From NCBI RefSeq assembly GCF_016595415.1, contig NZ_JAENIO010000010.1, positions 1-64,000 on the forward strand: DNA of 64,000 bases, in the 5' to 3' direction. The position numbers and the translations under genes are program-made. The notes under the pieces were generated by a model. That model was given only the letters and a program-made list of their open reading frames with translations, had not been told where the DNA came from and searched no databases. This document shows, in pieces, positions 52,412 to 58,546 of the stretch; the stretch's first letter is position 1; every line of letters begins with the position of its first letter. The DNA is from Roseibacillus ishigakijimensis (lineage in GTDB: Bacteria > Verrucomicrobiota > Verrucomicrobiia > Verrucomicrobiales > Akkermansiaceae).

Positions 52412-53704
52412 ATGGCATCCGGCTTTCAAACTCTCACAGGCTTCCGCGACTTCGATCCCAACGATTGCCAACTGCGCAACTACCTCTTCGACCGCTGGCG
52501 GCAGGTGGCCACCCGCTATGGCTTCGTGGAATACGAAACCCCGCTCCTCGAACCCACCGAGCTTTACCTGAAAAAATCAGGGGGTGAACTTTCCTCGCAA
52601 CTCTTTCGCTTTGAGGACCAGGGCGGTCGCGACGTCACCCTCCGGCCCGAAGTCACCGCCTCTCTCGCCCGCCTCGCCGCCGCCAAGCAACGCGACTACC
52701 CCAAGCCGCTCAAATGGTTCGAGATCGGCCAGTGCTTCCGCTACGAAAAGCCGCAAAAGGGCCGCACCCGCGAGTTCTACCAATTCAACACCGACATTCT
52801 GGGTGACGATTCCCCCGCTGCCGATGCCGAACTCATCGCCCTCGCCATCGACACCATGCGCGACCTGGGTTTCGGCCAAGACGACTTCAAAGTGCGCCTC
52901 TCTGACCGCAATGCCTGGTCGAAATTCGCCACCGAGCAGAATCTCAATGACGAGCAGCTGGCCGAACTGCTGCAAGTGGTCGACAAACTGGAGCGCGAAA
53001 AGCCCGAAGTGACCGCCGCCAAGCTGGCCCCCCTCGGCCTGCAGGCGGAGCAGCTGAGCGCCTTCATCGCCGATCCCGCCAACGAGTCCGAAGCCCTGCG
53101 CGAAATCCAGGCCAACCTCACCGCCCGCGGGCTGGGCGACTTCATCGAGGTCGACCTCTCCATCGTGCGCGGACTGGCCTACTACACCGGAGTCGTGTTC
53201 GAGATTTTCGACACCAAGAAGTCCCTGCGCGCCGTGGCCGGAGGAGGCCGCTACGACACTCTGGTCGAGACCCTGACCGATGGCAAAGTGAAGCTCCCCG
53301 CGATGGGCTTCGCGATGGGCGATGTCGTCATTGGCCTCTTCGTCAGCGAGAACGCCAATGCCCAGCGGCAGTTCGAAGCCTGGCGCCAACGCAATGCCAG
53401 CTGCGATCTCTACGTGGTCATCGACGACGAAAAAAAGCGCCCCGAAGCCCTCGCCCTCATCCAGGAATTGCGCGAGAACGGCTTCCGCATCGACTACCCG
53501 CTCAGCAAGACCAAGTTCGACAAACAGCTCAAGGCCGCCACCGCCACCCTCGCGCCCTTCGCCCTCGTCATTGGTCGTGATTACCCGCAGCTCGTCCTCA
53601 AGAATCTCAGTGCCCGATCCCAAGAGGAGATCGCCCCCAACACCAACCTCATCGCCTATCTCAAAAACCGCCTCAACGACCCCGAAGGTCCCTTGTTGGC
53701 TTAG
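52412..53704 (+). CDS. hisS: Histidyl-tRNA synthetase
   Basis: The start at 52412 (MASGFQTLTGFRDFDP) gives 430 residues, normal for the class II enzyme that charges tRNA-His. ETPLLEPTELYLKKSGGE is motif 1 region, WFEIGQCFRYEKPQKGRTREFYQFN is motif 2, and VEVDLSIVRGLAYYTGVVFE with GGGRYDTL is the histidine-specific block and motif 3 side. The C-terminal anticodon domain starts about 345. It is followed after 62 nt by the GxxExxY gene and later aspS, an aaRS pair that is usually adjacent. Confidence 0.96.
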   Translation: MASGFQTLTGFRDFDPNDCQLRNYLFDRWRQVATRYGFVEYETPLLEPTELYLKKSGGELSSQLFRFEDQGGRDVTLRPEVTASLARLAAAKQRDYPKPLKWFEIGQCFRYEKPQKGRTREFYQFNTDILGDDSPAADAELIALAIDTMRDLGFGQDDFKVRLSDRNAWSKFATEQNLNDEQLAELLQVVDKLEREKPEVTAAKLAPLGLQAEQLSAFIADPANESEALREIQANLTARGLGDFIEVDLSIVRGLAYYTGVVFEIFDTKKSLRAVAGGGRYDTLVETLTDGKVKLPAMGFAMGDVVIGLFVSENANAQRQFEAWRQRNASCDLYVVIDDEKKRPEALALIQELRENGFRIDYPLSKTKFDKQLKAATATLAPFALVIGRDYPQLVLKNLSARSQEEIAPNTNLIAYLKNRLNDPEGPLLA

Positions 53705-53710
53705 TTTTTC

Positions 53711-53745
53711 GTCGCAGAGACACCAAGACGCGGAGAATCGCAGAG
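53711..53745. repeat. Left 35-nt inverted end of the GxxExxY element
   Basis: The arm begins GTCGCAGAGACACCAAGACG and ends GCGGAGAATCGCAGAG. Its inverted partner is at 54219-54253; 31 of 35 positions match. It lies 6 nt after the hisS stop codon. Confidence 0.8.
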
Positions 53746-53766
53746 TCTAATTTGACTATTCTATCA

Positions 53767-54147
53767 ATGGATTTGAACAAGTTGTCAGAACTCGTGATTG
53801 GCGCAGCGATCGAGGTGCACCGGATCCTCGGACCGGGTTTATTGGAGCAGAGTTACGAAAAAGCTCTTATCTACGAACTTGAACTCCGCAATCTCACTTG
53901 TGACTCCCAAATCACCCTCCCCATTGCCTACAAAGAACTCTCAATTCCAGATGCCTATCGCATCGACCTCCTTGTAGAGAGACGCTTGCTCATCGAAATC
54001 AAAGCCGTCGAGAATATTTTACCCGTCCACAAAGCCCAACTCCTGACCTACCTGCGCCACACGCAAAAAGAGCTCGGTCTTCTCATCAATTTCAATAGTT
54101 CACTCCTCAAAAACGGTCTCACCCGCATTGTTAACTCTCCAAAATAA
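53767..54147 (+). CDS. GxxExxY protein (PD-(D/E)xK-like nuclease fold)
   Basis: The ATG at 53767 (MDLNKLSELVIGAAIEV) gives 126 residues, the family length. G24-x2-E27-x2-Y30 (in GPGLLEQSYEKAL) is the name motif. Y64-R-I-D67-L-L-V-E71 and E77-I-K79 give a D...E-x-K pattern like PD-(D/E)xK nucleases, followed by QLLTYLRH. Activity is not proven for the family. The gene lies between the aminoacyl-tRNA synthetase genes hisS and aspS, is more AT-rich than both, and is bounded by inverted repeats, which suggests insertion of a mobile or domesticated element. Confidence 0.9.
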   Translation: MDLNKLSELVIGAAIEVHRILGPGLLEQSYEKALIYELELRNLTCDSQITLPIAYKELSIPDAYRIDLLVERRLLIEIKAVENILPVHKAQLLTYLRHTQKELGLLINFNSSLLKNGLTRIVNSPK

Positions 54148-54218
54148 ACTCTTTCCAAAACCCTGAGAAACTCTGAGCCTCCGCCTCACCACCAAAAACC
54201 CTAGACTCATCCAAGAAC

Positions 54219-54253
54219 CTCTGCGCTCCTCCGCGTCTCAGTGTCTCTGCGAC
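54219..54253. repeat. Right 35-nt inverted end of the GxxExxY element
   Basis: Reverse complement of the left arm with four mismatches (31/35). It ends 21 nt before the aspS start. Degenerate fragments of the same CTCTGCG/CGCAGAG words lie at about 54160-54190. The space between the gene stop (54147) and this arm holds no gene. Confidence 0.8.
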
Positions 54254-54274
54254 AATTATTCCAACCCTTTTCCC

Positions 54275-56074
54275 ATGAGAACTCATCACTGCTCACAACT
54301 CCGCTCCGCCGATATCGGCGAAACCGTCACCCTCATCGGCTGGGTGAAGTCTGCCCGTGACCACGGCGGCGTCATCTTCATCGACCTCCGCGACCGCGAG
54401 GGCCTCACCCAAGTCGTCTTCCACCCGGAAGTCTCCGCCGAGATGGCCAAGCTCTCCCACACCCTCCGCGATGAAGACGTGGTGCAGATCGTGGGCAAGG
54501 TGGAAGCCCGTCCCGAAATCGATGGCAAGTCCACCGCCAATGCCGACCTGCCCACCGGCGACATCGAGGTCTCGGCCACCGAGCTGAAAATCGTCAACAA
54601 AGCTGCGGTCCTCCCTTTCCAACTGGACAAGGAACTCTCCAACGAGGACTTGCGTATGAAGTATCGCTACCTCGACCTGCGCCGCGAACGCATGAACCGC
54701 AACATGCGCCTGCGCCACCGCGTGACCAAGGCTACTCGCGACTACCTCGACGAAGGCGGCTTCCTCGAAGTGGAGACCCCCATTCTCTCCAAGTCCACTC
54801 CCGAAGGCGCGCGCGACTTCCTGGTGCCCTCCCGCATGCACCCCAAGGCCTTCTACGCCTTGCCCCAGGCCCCCCAGCAATACAAGCAGCTCCTCATGGT
54901 CGGAGGCATCGAGAAGTATTTCCAGATCGCCCGTTGCTTCCGCGATGAAGACCTGCGTGCCGACCGCCAGCCGGAGTTCACCCAAATCGATATCGAGACC
55001 TCCTTTGTCACTCAGGACGACATCATCGCCCTCGTGGAAGGCTTGCTCGGTCGCATCTTCAAGGAATCCCTCGAAGTCGAGATTCCCGCGAACTTCGAGC
55101 GTCTCACCTACCGCGAGGCCATGAACACCTATGGTTCGGACAAGCCCGACCGCCGCATTGGCATGGAGATCGTGGACGTCACCGAGGACCTCAAGGACTG
55201 CGAATTCCGCGTCTTCTCCGGCGCGGTGGCCAAGGGCGGAGTGGTCAAGGCCATCAACGCCAAGGGCTTCGCCGACGCCACCACCGGGCAGATCGAACGC
55301 CTCACCCAAACCGCTATCGAGGCCGGGGCAAAGGGACTCGCCTACATCCAAGCCCGCGACGTGGACCGCAAGACCTGGCGCTCGCCCTTCGTCAAACGCA
55401 TGACCGAAGAAGAGGTGGAGGCCCTGCGCAGCAAACTCAACATTGAGCCCGGCGATCTCATCCTCTTTGCCGCCGACAAATGGGAGCCCGCCTGCGAAGT
55501 GCTCGGCCGCATGCGTCTGGAAGTGGCCAACCTGCGCAATCTCTTGGAAGGCAACAAGGAGCTCGACTTCCTGTGGGTCACCGAATTCCCCCTCCTCGGC
55601 TACGACGAAGAGGAAGGCAAATGGAACGCCGTCCACCACCCCTTCACCCGCCCCATCCCCGAGCACGAAGAAGCGCTCAAGAAGGGCGAACTCGGCGACG
55701 GCCTCCTGGCCCAAGCCTACGACGTGGTCCTCAATGGCTACGAACTGGGCGGCGGCTCCATCCGGATTCACGAACAAGACCTGCAATCGGCCATGTTCGA
55801 CGCCCTCGGCGTGACCGCAGAGGAGAAGGAAACGATGTTTGCCCACATCCTGGAGGCCTTCACCTTCGGCGCCCCTCCCCACGGCGGGGTGGCCCTCGGC
55901 CTTGACCGCATTGCCATGCTGGTGGCGGGAGAGAGTTCCATCCGCGAGGTCATTGCCTTCCCGAAAAACAACAAGGCCAGCGACCTGATGACCGACAGCC
56001 CGGCGGAAGTGGACTTCAAGCAACTGCGCGAACTCCGCATCAAGTCCACCGTGGTGGACAAGCCCGCCGAGTAA
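54275..56074 (+). CDS. aspS: Aspartyl-tRNA synthetase
   Basis: A 599-residue bacterial-type class IIb enzyme. The N-terminal OB fold (about 10-110) binds the anticodon; motif 2 is FRDEDLRADRQPEFTQIDIE; motif 3 is GGVALGLDRIAMLVAG near the end; the GAD insertion (about 290-420) marks the bacterial form. QAPQQYKQLLMVGG is conserved. It charges tRNA-Asp, and possibly tRNA-Asn if AspRS is non-discriminating, which cannot be judged here. A terminator follows. Confidence 0.97.
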   Translation: MRTHHCSQLRSADIGETVTLIGWVKSARDHGGVIFIDLRDREGLTQVVFHPEVSAEMAKLSHTLRDEDVVQIVGKVEARPEIDGKSTANADLPTGDIEVSATELKIVNKAAVLPFQLDKELSNEDLRMKYRYLDLRRERMNRNMRLRHRVTKATRDYLDEGGFLEVETPILSKSTPEGARDFLVPSRMHPKAFYALPQAPQQYKQLLMVGGIEKYFQIARCFRDEDLRADRQPEFTQIDIETSFVTQDDIIALVEGLLGRIFKESLEVEIPANFERLTYREAMNTYGSDKPDRRIGMEIVDVTEDLKDCEFRVFSGAVAKGGVVKAINAKGFADATTGQIERLTQTAIEAGAKGLAYIQARDVDRKTWRSPFVKRMTEEEVEALRSKLNIEPGDLILFAADKWEPACEVLGRMRLEVANLRNLLEGNKELDFLWVTEFPLLGYDEEEGKWNAVHHPFTRPIPEHEEALKKGELGDGLLAQAYDVVLNGYELGGGSIRIHEQDLQSAMFDALGVTAEEKETMFAHILEAFTFGAPPHGGVALGLDRIAMLVAGESSIREVIAFPKNNKASDLMTDSPAEVDFKQLRELRIKSTVVDKPAE

Positions 56075-56938: not shown

Positions 56939-58546
56939 TCACTTCTCCCGCACTGGCCAGGAGAGCCCCCATTTGGCGAGATACTTTTTCAGCCGATCGC
57001 AATCATTGGGTTTGGCCCGCCTCAGGCGCGAGACGGCGAAAAGCTCCCGTCCAGCGGCCGAGAGGCTGGGTGAGCGCTGGCAAACGGCGATCACGTGAGC
57101 CAATTGCACCCGGTCAAAAGGGTCGATCTCGGCCAATTGCGCTGCCGGGAAATAGTGGGTCAAGTCCACTCCCAAAGCGGCGGCGTTCTCTCCCGGCCGA
57201 TGCCAGCTCGCCCGCAGACGGGCGATTTCCTCCTCCACTTCTTCCACCCGAATCCGCCCCCGGGGTGCCAGGGTGGACATGCGGGTGAGCGCGGCATTGA
57301 GGTCCCGGAAGTTTCCCCGCCAGGGGGTGTCGGGCGACTCCGCGAAACGCAGAAAAGCCTCGCGCGCTTCTTTGTTGAAACTGACGCGCCGCCCTTCCTG
57401 CTCACTCAAGCGTGCGAGCTCGAAATCGAGATTGGGGGCTAGGTCTTCCCGTCGTTCCGCCAGAGCCGGGAGGGCAAAGGTCCAAAGCTGGATGCGGGCC
57501 AGCAAATCCTCGCGAAACCGCCCCTCCGCCACCGCCCGGCCGAGGTCGCGATTGGTCCCCGCGATGAGCTGGAAATCGCTCCTCACCGGCGCATCGGCCC
57601 CCACGGGCAGAAAGGTCTTTTCCTCCAACGCCCGCAGCAGCATGGCCTGCTCGTCGCGACCGAGTTCGCCAATTTCATCCAAAAAGAGCATGCCCCCATC
57701 AGCCGTGCGGAGGAGGCCGGGGCGATGGCTCTGCGCGCCCGTGAAGGCTCCCTTGCGATGCCCAAAGAGGGTGGAAGCAGCGGTATCTCCGCCCAAAGTG
57801 GCGCAATTGACCTCCACAAAGTCACCCGCCAGATTGGCCCGACTACGACGCAACTCGTAAATGCGGCGCGCGAGGTGACTCTTCCCCGCTCCCGTTGGGC
57901 CGGTGAGCAAGACCGGGGCCCGCGAGCGCAGGGCCACTTGCTCAATGCGGGCGATGAGGCGGTTGAAGCCTTCATTGCGGGTGGCAATGCCGCTTTTGAG
58001 AAAATCGGTGCTCGCAATCTGCTCTTTCGCAAAGCGGCTGGTCAACTCGTCGTAACGCGAGAGGTCGAGATCAATGAAGGAGTAACGCCCCACCCGCGGC
58101 TGCCCCCGCCGGGCTTTGCCAAAGGGAGGCGCGGTCTGCACCAGGCGCCCCGGCAGATAACCCGCCTCATTGAGCAAAAAGAGAGAAATCTGCGCCACGT
58201 GGGTGCCGGTGGTAATGTGAATGAGATGGTCGTCCCCGGAGTGAAAATCCTGCCCACGGGCCCAGTCGAAAAGCGCCCCATAGACGTTGGCGAGGTCCCA
58301 GGCATCGCGCCCGAAGGCAATCTCCTCCACCCGCACCTCGGTCTCGGGCGAGACCAGGGCGATGTCGGCCGCCACCTGATCGGCCAAGTCGCGGTGACCA
58401 GCCTCGGTGAGCAAGTGATAACGGTCGAGCAAGAGATCCTCGTGCTGAAAGAGCGACACTGTCGGCCGCCAGCCTTCCCATCGCCCCGGGCTATTCCCGC
58501 GATCCAAGCGCGAGCCCAGCAAGCCCATTCCCACCGTCTTTTTCAC
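56939..58546 (-). CDS. rtcR: RtcR, CARF-domain sigma-54 activator of RNA repair genes
   Basis: A 535-residue protein. Residues about 1-180 are the RtcR N-terminal CARF-type sensor (HIAHITTGTHVAQISLF-like block at about 110). Residues about 190-430 form the AAA+ domain with Walker A LLTGPTGAGKSHLARR, the sigma-54 contact loop GAFTGA in GHRKGAFTGAQS, Walker B GGMLFLDEIGEL and the R-finger side. A DNA-binding end follows. It activates sigma-54 transcription of rtcBA when bound to an RNA-damage ligand, as known for E. coli RtcR. The rtcBA operon starts about 1.3 kb away on the other strand. Confidence 0.93.
   Translation of the reverse strand: MKKTVGMGLLGSRLDRGNSPGRWEGWRPTVSLFQHEDLLLDRYHLLTEAGHRDLADQVAADIALVSPETEVRVEEIAFGRDAWDLANVYGALFDWARGQDFHSGDDHLIHITTGTHVAQISLFLLNEAGYLPGRLVQTAPPFGKARRGQPRVGRYSFIDLDLSRYDELTSRFAKEQIASTDFLKSGIATRNEGFNRLIARIEQVALRSRAPVLLTGPTGAGKSHLARRIYELRRSRANLAGDFVEVNCATLGGDTAASTLFGHRKGAFTGAQSHRPGLLRTADGGMLFLDEIGELGRDEQAMLLRALEEKTFLPVGADAPVRSDFQLIAGTNRDLGRAVAEGRFREDLLARIQLWTFALPALAERREDLAPNLDFELARLSEQEGRRVSFNKEAREAFLRFAESPDTPWRGNFRDLNAALTRMSTLAPRGRIRVEEVEEEIARLRASWHRPGENAAALGVDLTHYFPAAQLAEIDPFDRVQLAHVIAVCQRSPSLSAAGRELFAVSRLRRAKPNDCDRLKKYLAKWGLSWPVREK

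Follow-up and report, generated by a model that had tools for sequence, protein, structure and literature searches.

Between hisS and aspS, in the window (the whole 64,000-nt stretch of DNA that was analysed), a short gene of the GxxExxY family is enclosed by inverted repeats and by little else. Is this arrangement a mobile element and, if so, does the protein encoded by its single gene move it?

Architecture of the unit between hisS and aspS

The candidate mobile unit is 543 bp long (53711..54253) and lies on the plus strand, the same strand as hisS and aspS. Its borders were derived from copies in unrelated flanks and from empty sites. The left arm (53711..53745, plus strand) is 35 nt long and consists of four 7-nt iterons of the form CRCNRAG, at 53713-53719, 53721-53727, 53729-53735 and 53739-53745, with starts spaced 8, 8 and 10 nt apart; this repeat structure refines an earlier, sequence-only reading of the locus. 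The right arm (54219..54253, minus strand) repeats the left arm in inverted orientation, with equal 8-8-10 iteron spacing. The two arms match at 31 of 35 positions, and 35-mer pairs in shuffled flanks reach 21 matches at best (200 shuffles), which bears out the inverted arms described in that reading. Only 6 nt (53705..53710) separate the hisS stop codon at 53704 from the left arm, and 21 nt (54254..54274) separate the right arm from the aspS ATG at 54275, so the unit is indeed lodged in the gap between these genes, as had been noted.

The gene between the arms, at 53767..54147 on the plus strand, starts with ATG, has an alternative in-frame TTG start at 53752, and encodes a predicted PD-(D/E)xK nuclease of 126 aa. 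Between its stop codon and the right arm, the stretch at 54160-54195 resembles a decayed extra arm, CTGAGAAACTCTGAGCCTCCGCCTC. Elsewhere in the window, a minus-strand frame at 56939-58546 reads, as judged by eye, like an RtcR-type sigma-54 activator.

The GxxExxY protein

Profile searches identified the window protein as a clear member of TIGR04256 (GxxExxY), with 140 bits against a cut-off of 35 (E 3e-41), and also matched it to PF13366, PDDEXK_3 (E 3e-40). The residues D67, E77 and K79, from which a PD-(D/E)xK-like gene had been proposed, are invariant in an alignment of 59 proteins, and so are G24, E27, Q91 and Y95. An AlphaFold2 model of the protein was obtained with a mean pLDDT of 97.2. 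The closest solved fold was that of SSO0001 (4ic1, Z 9.4), which we take to be a Cas4 protein, followed by other restriction-endonuclease-like folds. In both fold and catalytic residues the protein thus conforms to the PD-(D/E)xK superfamily.

In a comparison with known anti-phage defence families, only Cas4 profiles matched the window protein, and these weakly (E 0.003-0.01). A search of solved structures by sequence profile gave no match, and no relatives of the protein were found in the viral contigs and phages searched. Judged from the model, the protein is best read as a Cas4/lambda-exonuclease-like PD-(D/E)xK nuclease that is presumably catalytically active. It shares the fold and the QxxxY motif with Cas4, RecB and lambda exonuclease, but unlike these it is a single domain of 126 aa, and the window copy has no adjoining CRISPR gene.

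Inverted arms at other GxxExxY loci

We examined 144 GxxExxY loci from the host phylum by aligning the upstream flank to the inverted downstream flank, and a score of at least 15 was counted as arms. Control flank pairs were taken from the same 144 loci, 650-950 bp away. Inverted, iterated arms were present at 89.6% of the loci and at 2.2% of the control pairs; about 10% of the GxxExxY copies were without detectable arms. The median element length was 489 bp. A typical arm repeats a unit of 8-10 nt three or four times in tandem, and the arms fall into several classes, including CRCRRAG, ACAGGATT, CACGAAT/CACGGAA and CRCAGAT. Beyond the host phylum, arms were found in named genomes of Planctomycetota, Terriglobia, Ignavibacteria and Anaerolineae, and on Bacteroides, Bernardetia and Sphingomonas replicons; they were absent at several other Bacteroidota GxxExxY loci examined. 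The arms therefore recur around other genes of the family, at about 90% of the sampled host-phylum loci and in several other phyla, a recurrence on which the earlier proposal depended.

A genome can contain up to 13 GxxExxY copies. The genome of the window has three further GxxExxY genes (L001, L003 and L004), the arms of each of which differ in sequence from those of the window element, and the L004 copy contains an in-frame TAG. Four loci (L104, L107, L122 and L155) have an odd class of arm, ACCACCCG(C/T)TC...CTAGAGG or CTGGAGA, without regular iterons, and this irregular class may use another mode of recognition. Two copies without detectable arms, L032 and L045, are possibly domesticated; the L045 domain lies inside an open frame of 369 codons.

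Copies in unrelated flanks and empty sites

The borders of the moving unit are clearest in a pair of elements from two species of one genus, L155 (in G057) and L107 (in G060). These are 88.2% identical over 500 bp, exactly from arm to arm, and their flanks do not match each other. Further close pairs of elements end at or near the arms, less exactly than this pair. The L155 site is empty in seven genomes (G032, G371, G365, G367, G157, G108 and G060) and the L107 site in nine (G364, G157, G367, G369, G370, G365, G371, G057 and G108); each of the two sites is thus vacant in the partner species as well as in further members of the genus. At most empty sites the arm pair is absent altogether.

The window site varies in the same way. 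In at least nine relatives hisS and aspS are adjacent without a GxxExxY gene, so that the unit is not fixed there and the empty site sought at the outset exists. The site is filled in three genomes (G000, G001 and G009). The G001 and G009 elements are related, with 51% protein identity, and form one supported clade; the window element belongs to another clade and another arm class, and the hisS-aspS gap has therefore been occupied independently at least twice. In genus g3 the family is present in only 4 of 76 genomes; there, the empty-site comparisons for L232 and L228 have one variable flank. Copies inside one genome are mostly divergent and not fresh duplicates. In L280 and L293, the orthologous gap contains solo arm-like remnants where sister species hold the full element, which suggests reuse of the site.

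The unit had been put forward as a candidate minimal mobile element, and the recurrent arms, the empty sites and the 88% identical arm-to-arm copies in unrelated flanks support this. It is very likely that the unit delimited by the arms is mobile, and that the arms and the protein form a matched set.

Placement of the elements

The gene nearly fills the element: the median distance is 13 nt between arm and start codon, and 7.5 nt between stop codon and arm. These margins are too short to accommodate a promoter, and transcription that reads through from the preceding gene is therefore the probable mode of expression. At 103 of the 113 loci with an assignable left neighbour, this neighbour is co-directional; over 121 loci, the arm starts a median of 8.5 nt from the 3′ end of a neighbouring gene. 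Read-through expression would explain why the surviving copies are mostly co-directional and lie right behind stop codons.

A target-site duplication had also been raised as a possibility for the unit. None was seen over 121 loci, with no signal at any offset for lengths of 2 to 15. At the empty sites, the intergenic DNA has diverged too far for base-by-base alignment.

Gene-less pairs of arms

The exact four-iteron pattern of the window arms occurs 30 times in its own genome, and a reversed control pattern does not occur (0 matches). All but two of these arms (28 of 30) are found elsewhere than in the window element. The nine REPIN-like pairs without a gene that were measured are 82-86 bp long and have loops of 16-20 nt. 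Tandem arrays of such pairs are found at contig ends (L007, L009, L015 and L026, on contigs C119, C123, C106 and C144 of the same genome). As these arrays probably break the assembly, satellite counts are lower bounds. A single genome can hold tens of gene-less pairs.

A three-iteron pattern gave 1279 matches in 289 genomes of the host phylum and none in the control. Of these matches 1249 sit in genomes that carry GxxExxY, both counts including the arms beside genes. Presence of the repeat accompanies presence of the gene across the 289 genomes (odds ratio 15, Fisher p 6e-20), and the association holds under within-family permutation (97 against 83.8 ± 2.4).

Match between arms and proteins

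More than one arm class is present in 27 of the 39 genomes that have two or more loci. When arm class was placed on the protein tree, 14 changes were required, compared with 46.4 for shuffled classes. Protein and arm are correlated with a rho of 0.24; when arms were permuted among the loci of one genome, the value fell to 0.05 ± 0.02, with a maximum of 0.13 in 500 permutations. Residues 60-66, 93-98 and 110-118 separate the arm classes, a separation that is confounded with phylogeny and provides leads only.

The two arms of a locus were also compared with each other. At 57 CRCNRAG loci, mismatches affected 7% of the positions in iterons and 46% of those in spacers (p 4e-46). The iterons are therefore kept while the spacers are free to differ. 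Inverted arms near a short gene could in principle pair in the transcript, stabilising or terminating it, instead of serving as recognition sites on DNA; direct evidence for such pairing was not found. G.U-type mismatches, which numbered 139 against 171 of the A.C type, were however not favoured at these loci, and together with the freely differing spacers this pattern speaks against the RNA stem; we give that explanation almost no credence. What is conserved thus appears to be a motif in the DNA that is iterated and fits the protein. As far as such an association between sequences can tell, the protein very probably recognises its own arms. The earlier suggestion of a nuclease that targets the flanking repeat is upheld indirectly as to recognition, by the co-variation of arm and protein and the conservation of iterons over spacers; as to cutting, it is a prediction.

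A possible transposition pathway and its alternatives

Probably, in our view, the GxxExxY protein is itself the mobilising enzyme of a minimal element with non-autonomous satellites. A complete element would consist of little more than an arm, the nuclease gene and an inverted arm. The protein would recognise the iterons repeated in tandem in its own arms and, with its PD-(D/E)xK centre, cut or nick the DNA at the pair of arms. The segment from arm to arm would then be moved or copied into a new intergenic site with the aid of host replication or repair, in a transfer that would leave no visible target-site duplication. At the new site the gene would be transcribed by read-through from the gene upstream, and arm-loop-arm copies of 82-86 bp lacking the gene would be satellites served in trans. 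We infer all three activities that this pathway calls for, namely binding to DNA, its cleavage and the chemistry of transfer. Points against this reading are the missing target-site duplication, the roughly 10% of copies that have no detectable arms, and the mostly divergent state of copies that share a genome.

A related pathway would be homing, in which the nuclease cuts gene-less pairs and repair through the arms copies the gene-bearing element into them, the satellites being target sites of the element and not its offspring. Such a pathway would suit a nuclease with no other partner. It is also in keeping with the arm architecture common to gene-less pairs and gene-bearing elements, and with the solo arm-like remnants that some relatives (L280 and L293) have at the orthologous position. 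We nevertheless regard homing as unlikely, because the arm pair is wholly missing at most empty sites and because tens of gene-less pairs per genome would be left unexplained. That the arms belong to the transposase of another element, with GxxExxY as a passenger, would be compatible with the fact that mobilisation by GxxExxY itself is our inference; but arm class tracks GxxExxY subfamily across genomes and the repeats are almost confined to GxxExxY carriers, which makes a passenger role extremely improbable.

The protein might instead bind DNA as a regulator, with the arms as its operators and the gene-less pairs as its regulon. Something of this kind has been proposed in Geobacter metallireducens, where, in the part of the report covered here, multicopy octanucleotide sites composed of 3-5 tandem repeats of 7-9 nt, paired on opposite strands, were read as sites for IHF/HU or a global regulator, with no link to a nuclease gene (PMC2700814). 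Against such a role stand the invariant PD-(D/E)xK residues, the mobility of the unit from arm to arm, the presence of arms on both sides of the gene and the tandem arrays of gene-less pairs; we consider it very unlikely. Mobilisation by the GxxExxY protein thus remains the reading that we prefer.

Relation to known systems

Like insertion sequences with their MITEs, the GxxExxY elements have inverted ends around a moving unit, an internal gene and gene-less derivatives. They differ in that the sole gene between the arms (PDDEXK_3) encodes no transposase of a known family, and in that a target-site duplication was not seen. We know of no transposon that relies on a PD-(D/E)xK nuclease alone.

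The closest functional parallel is with REPINs and RAYTs. REPINs are doublets of short inverted repeats that reach high copy number and occur as singles and in tandem arrays; each repeat class is tied to one protein, the gene is flanked by its repeats, and spread is presumed to occur in trans (PMC3116915). The GxxExxY elements likewise have many-copy inverted doublets of a short repeat tied to a protein. The enzymes differ, however, RAYT being an HUH Y1 transposase that uses a tyrosine and the GxxExxY enzyme a PDDEXK_3 protein with a Cas4-like fold. The arms of the GxxExxY elements are moreover tandem iterons of 7-10 nt, and the unit that moves, which runs from arm to arm, includes the gene. 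The element would therefore work like RAYT/REPIN without belonging to it, the enzyme being unrelated.

In the open-access texts on GxxExxY, so far as they were covered, arms, mobility or satellites are not described, and no paper in the open-access literature searched joins GxxExxY with such repeats (preprints, subscription papers and supplementary files lay outside this scope). Related elements and their gene-less derivatives are dispersed across many bacterial genomes, apparently without having been described before as mobile DNA. We lean towards the view that they form a class of autonomous transposable elements whose driving enzyme is one PD-(D/E)xK nuclease that binds iterated arms, and that this class, accompanied by REPIN-like satellites, is widespread in bacteria and the source of many unassigned intergenic repeats. 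GxxExxY, a common family so far without an assigned function, would thereby gain a role open to testing, that of the enzyme behind a minimal mobile element, and the natural set of protein-arm pairs would provide a readout of DNA choice by a 126-aa nuclease. Paired iterated repeats earlier left as unexplained regulatory sites would also find a possible explanation. In the portion of the Geobacter metallireducens report covered here, the consensus of class 2, TCTCCGTS, is complementary to a SACGGAGA iteron (PMC2700814). By analogy, the GxxExxY data suggest that the paired repeats of that genome may be open to another reading than that of global regulator sites.
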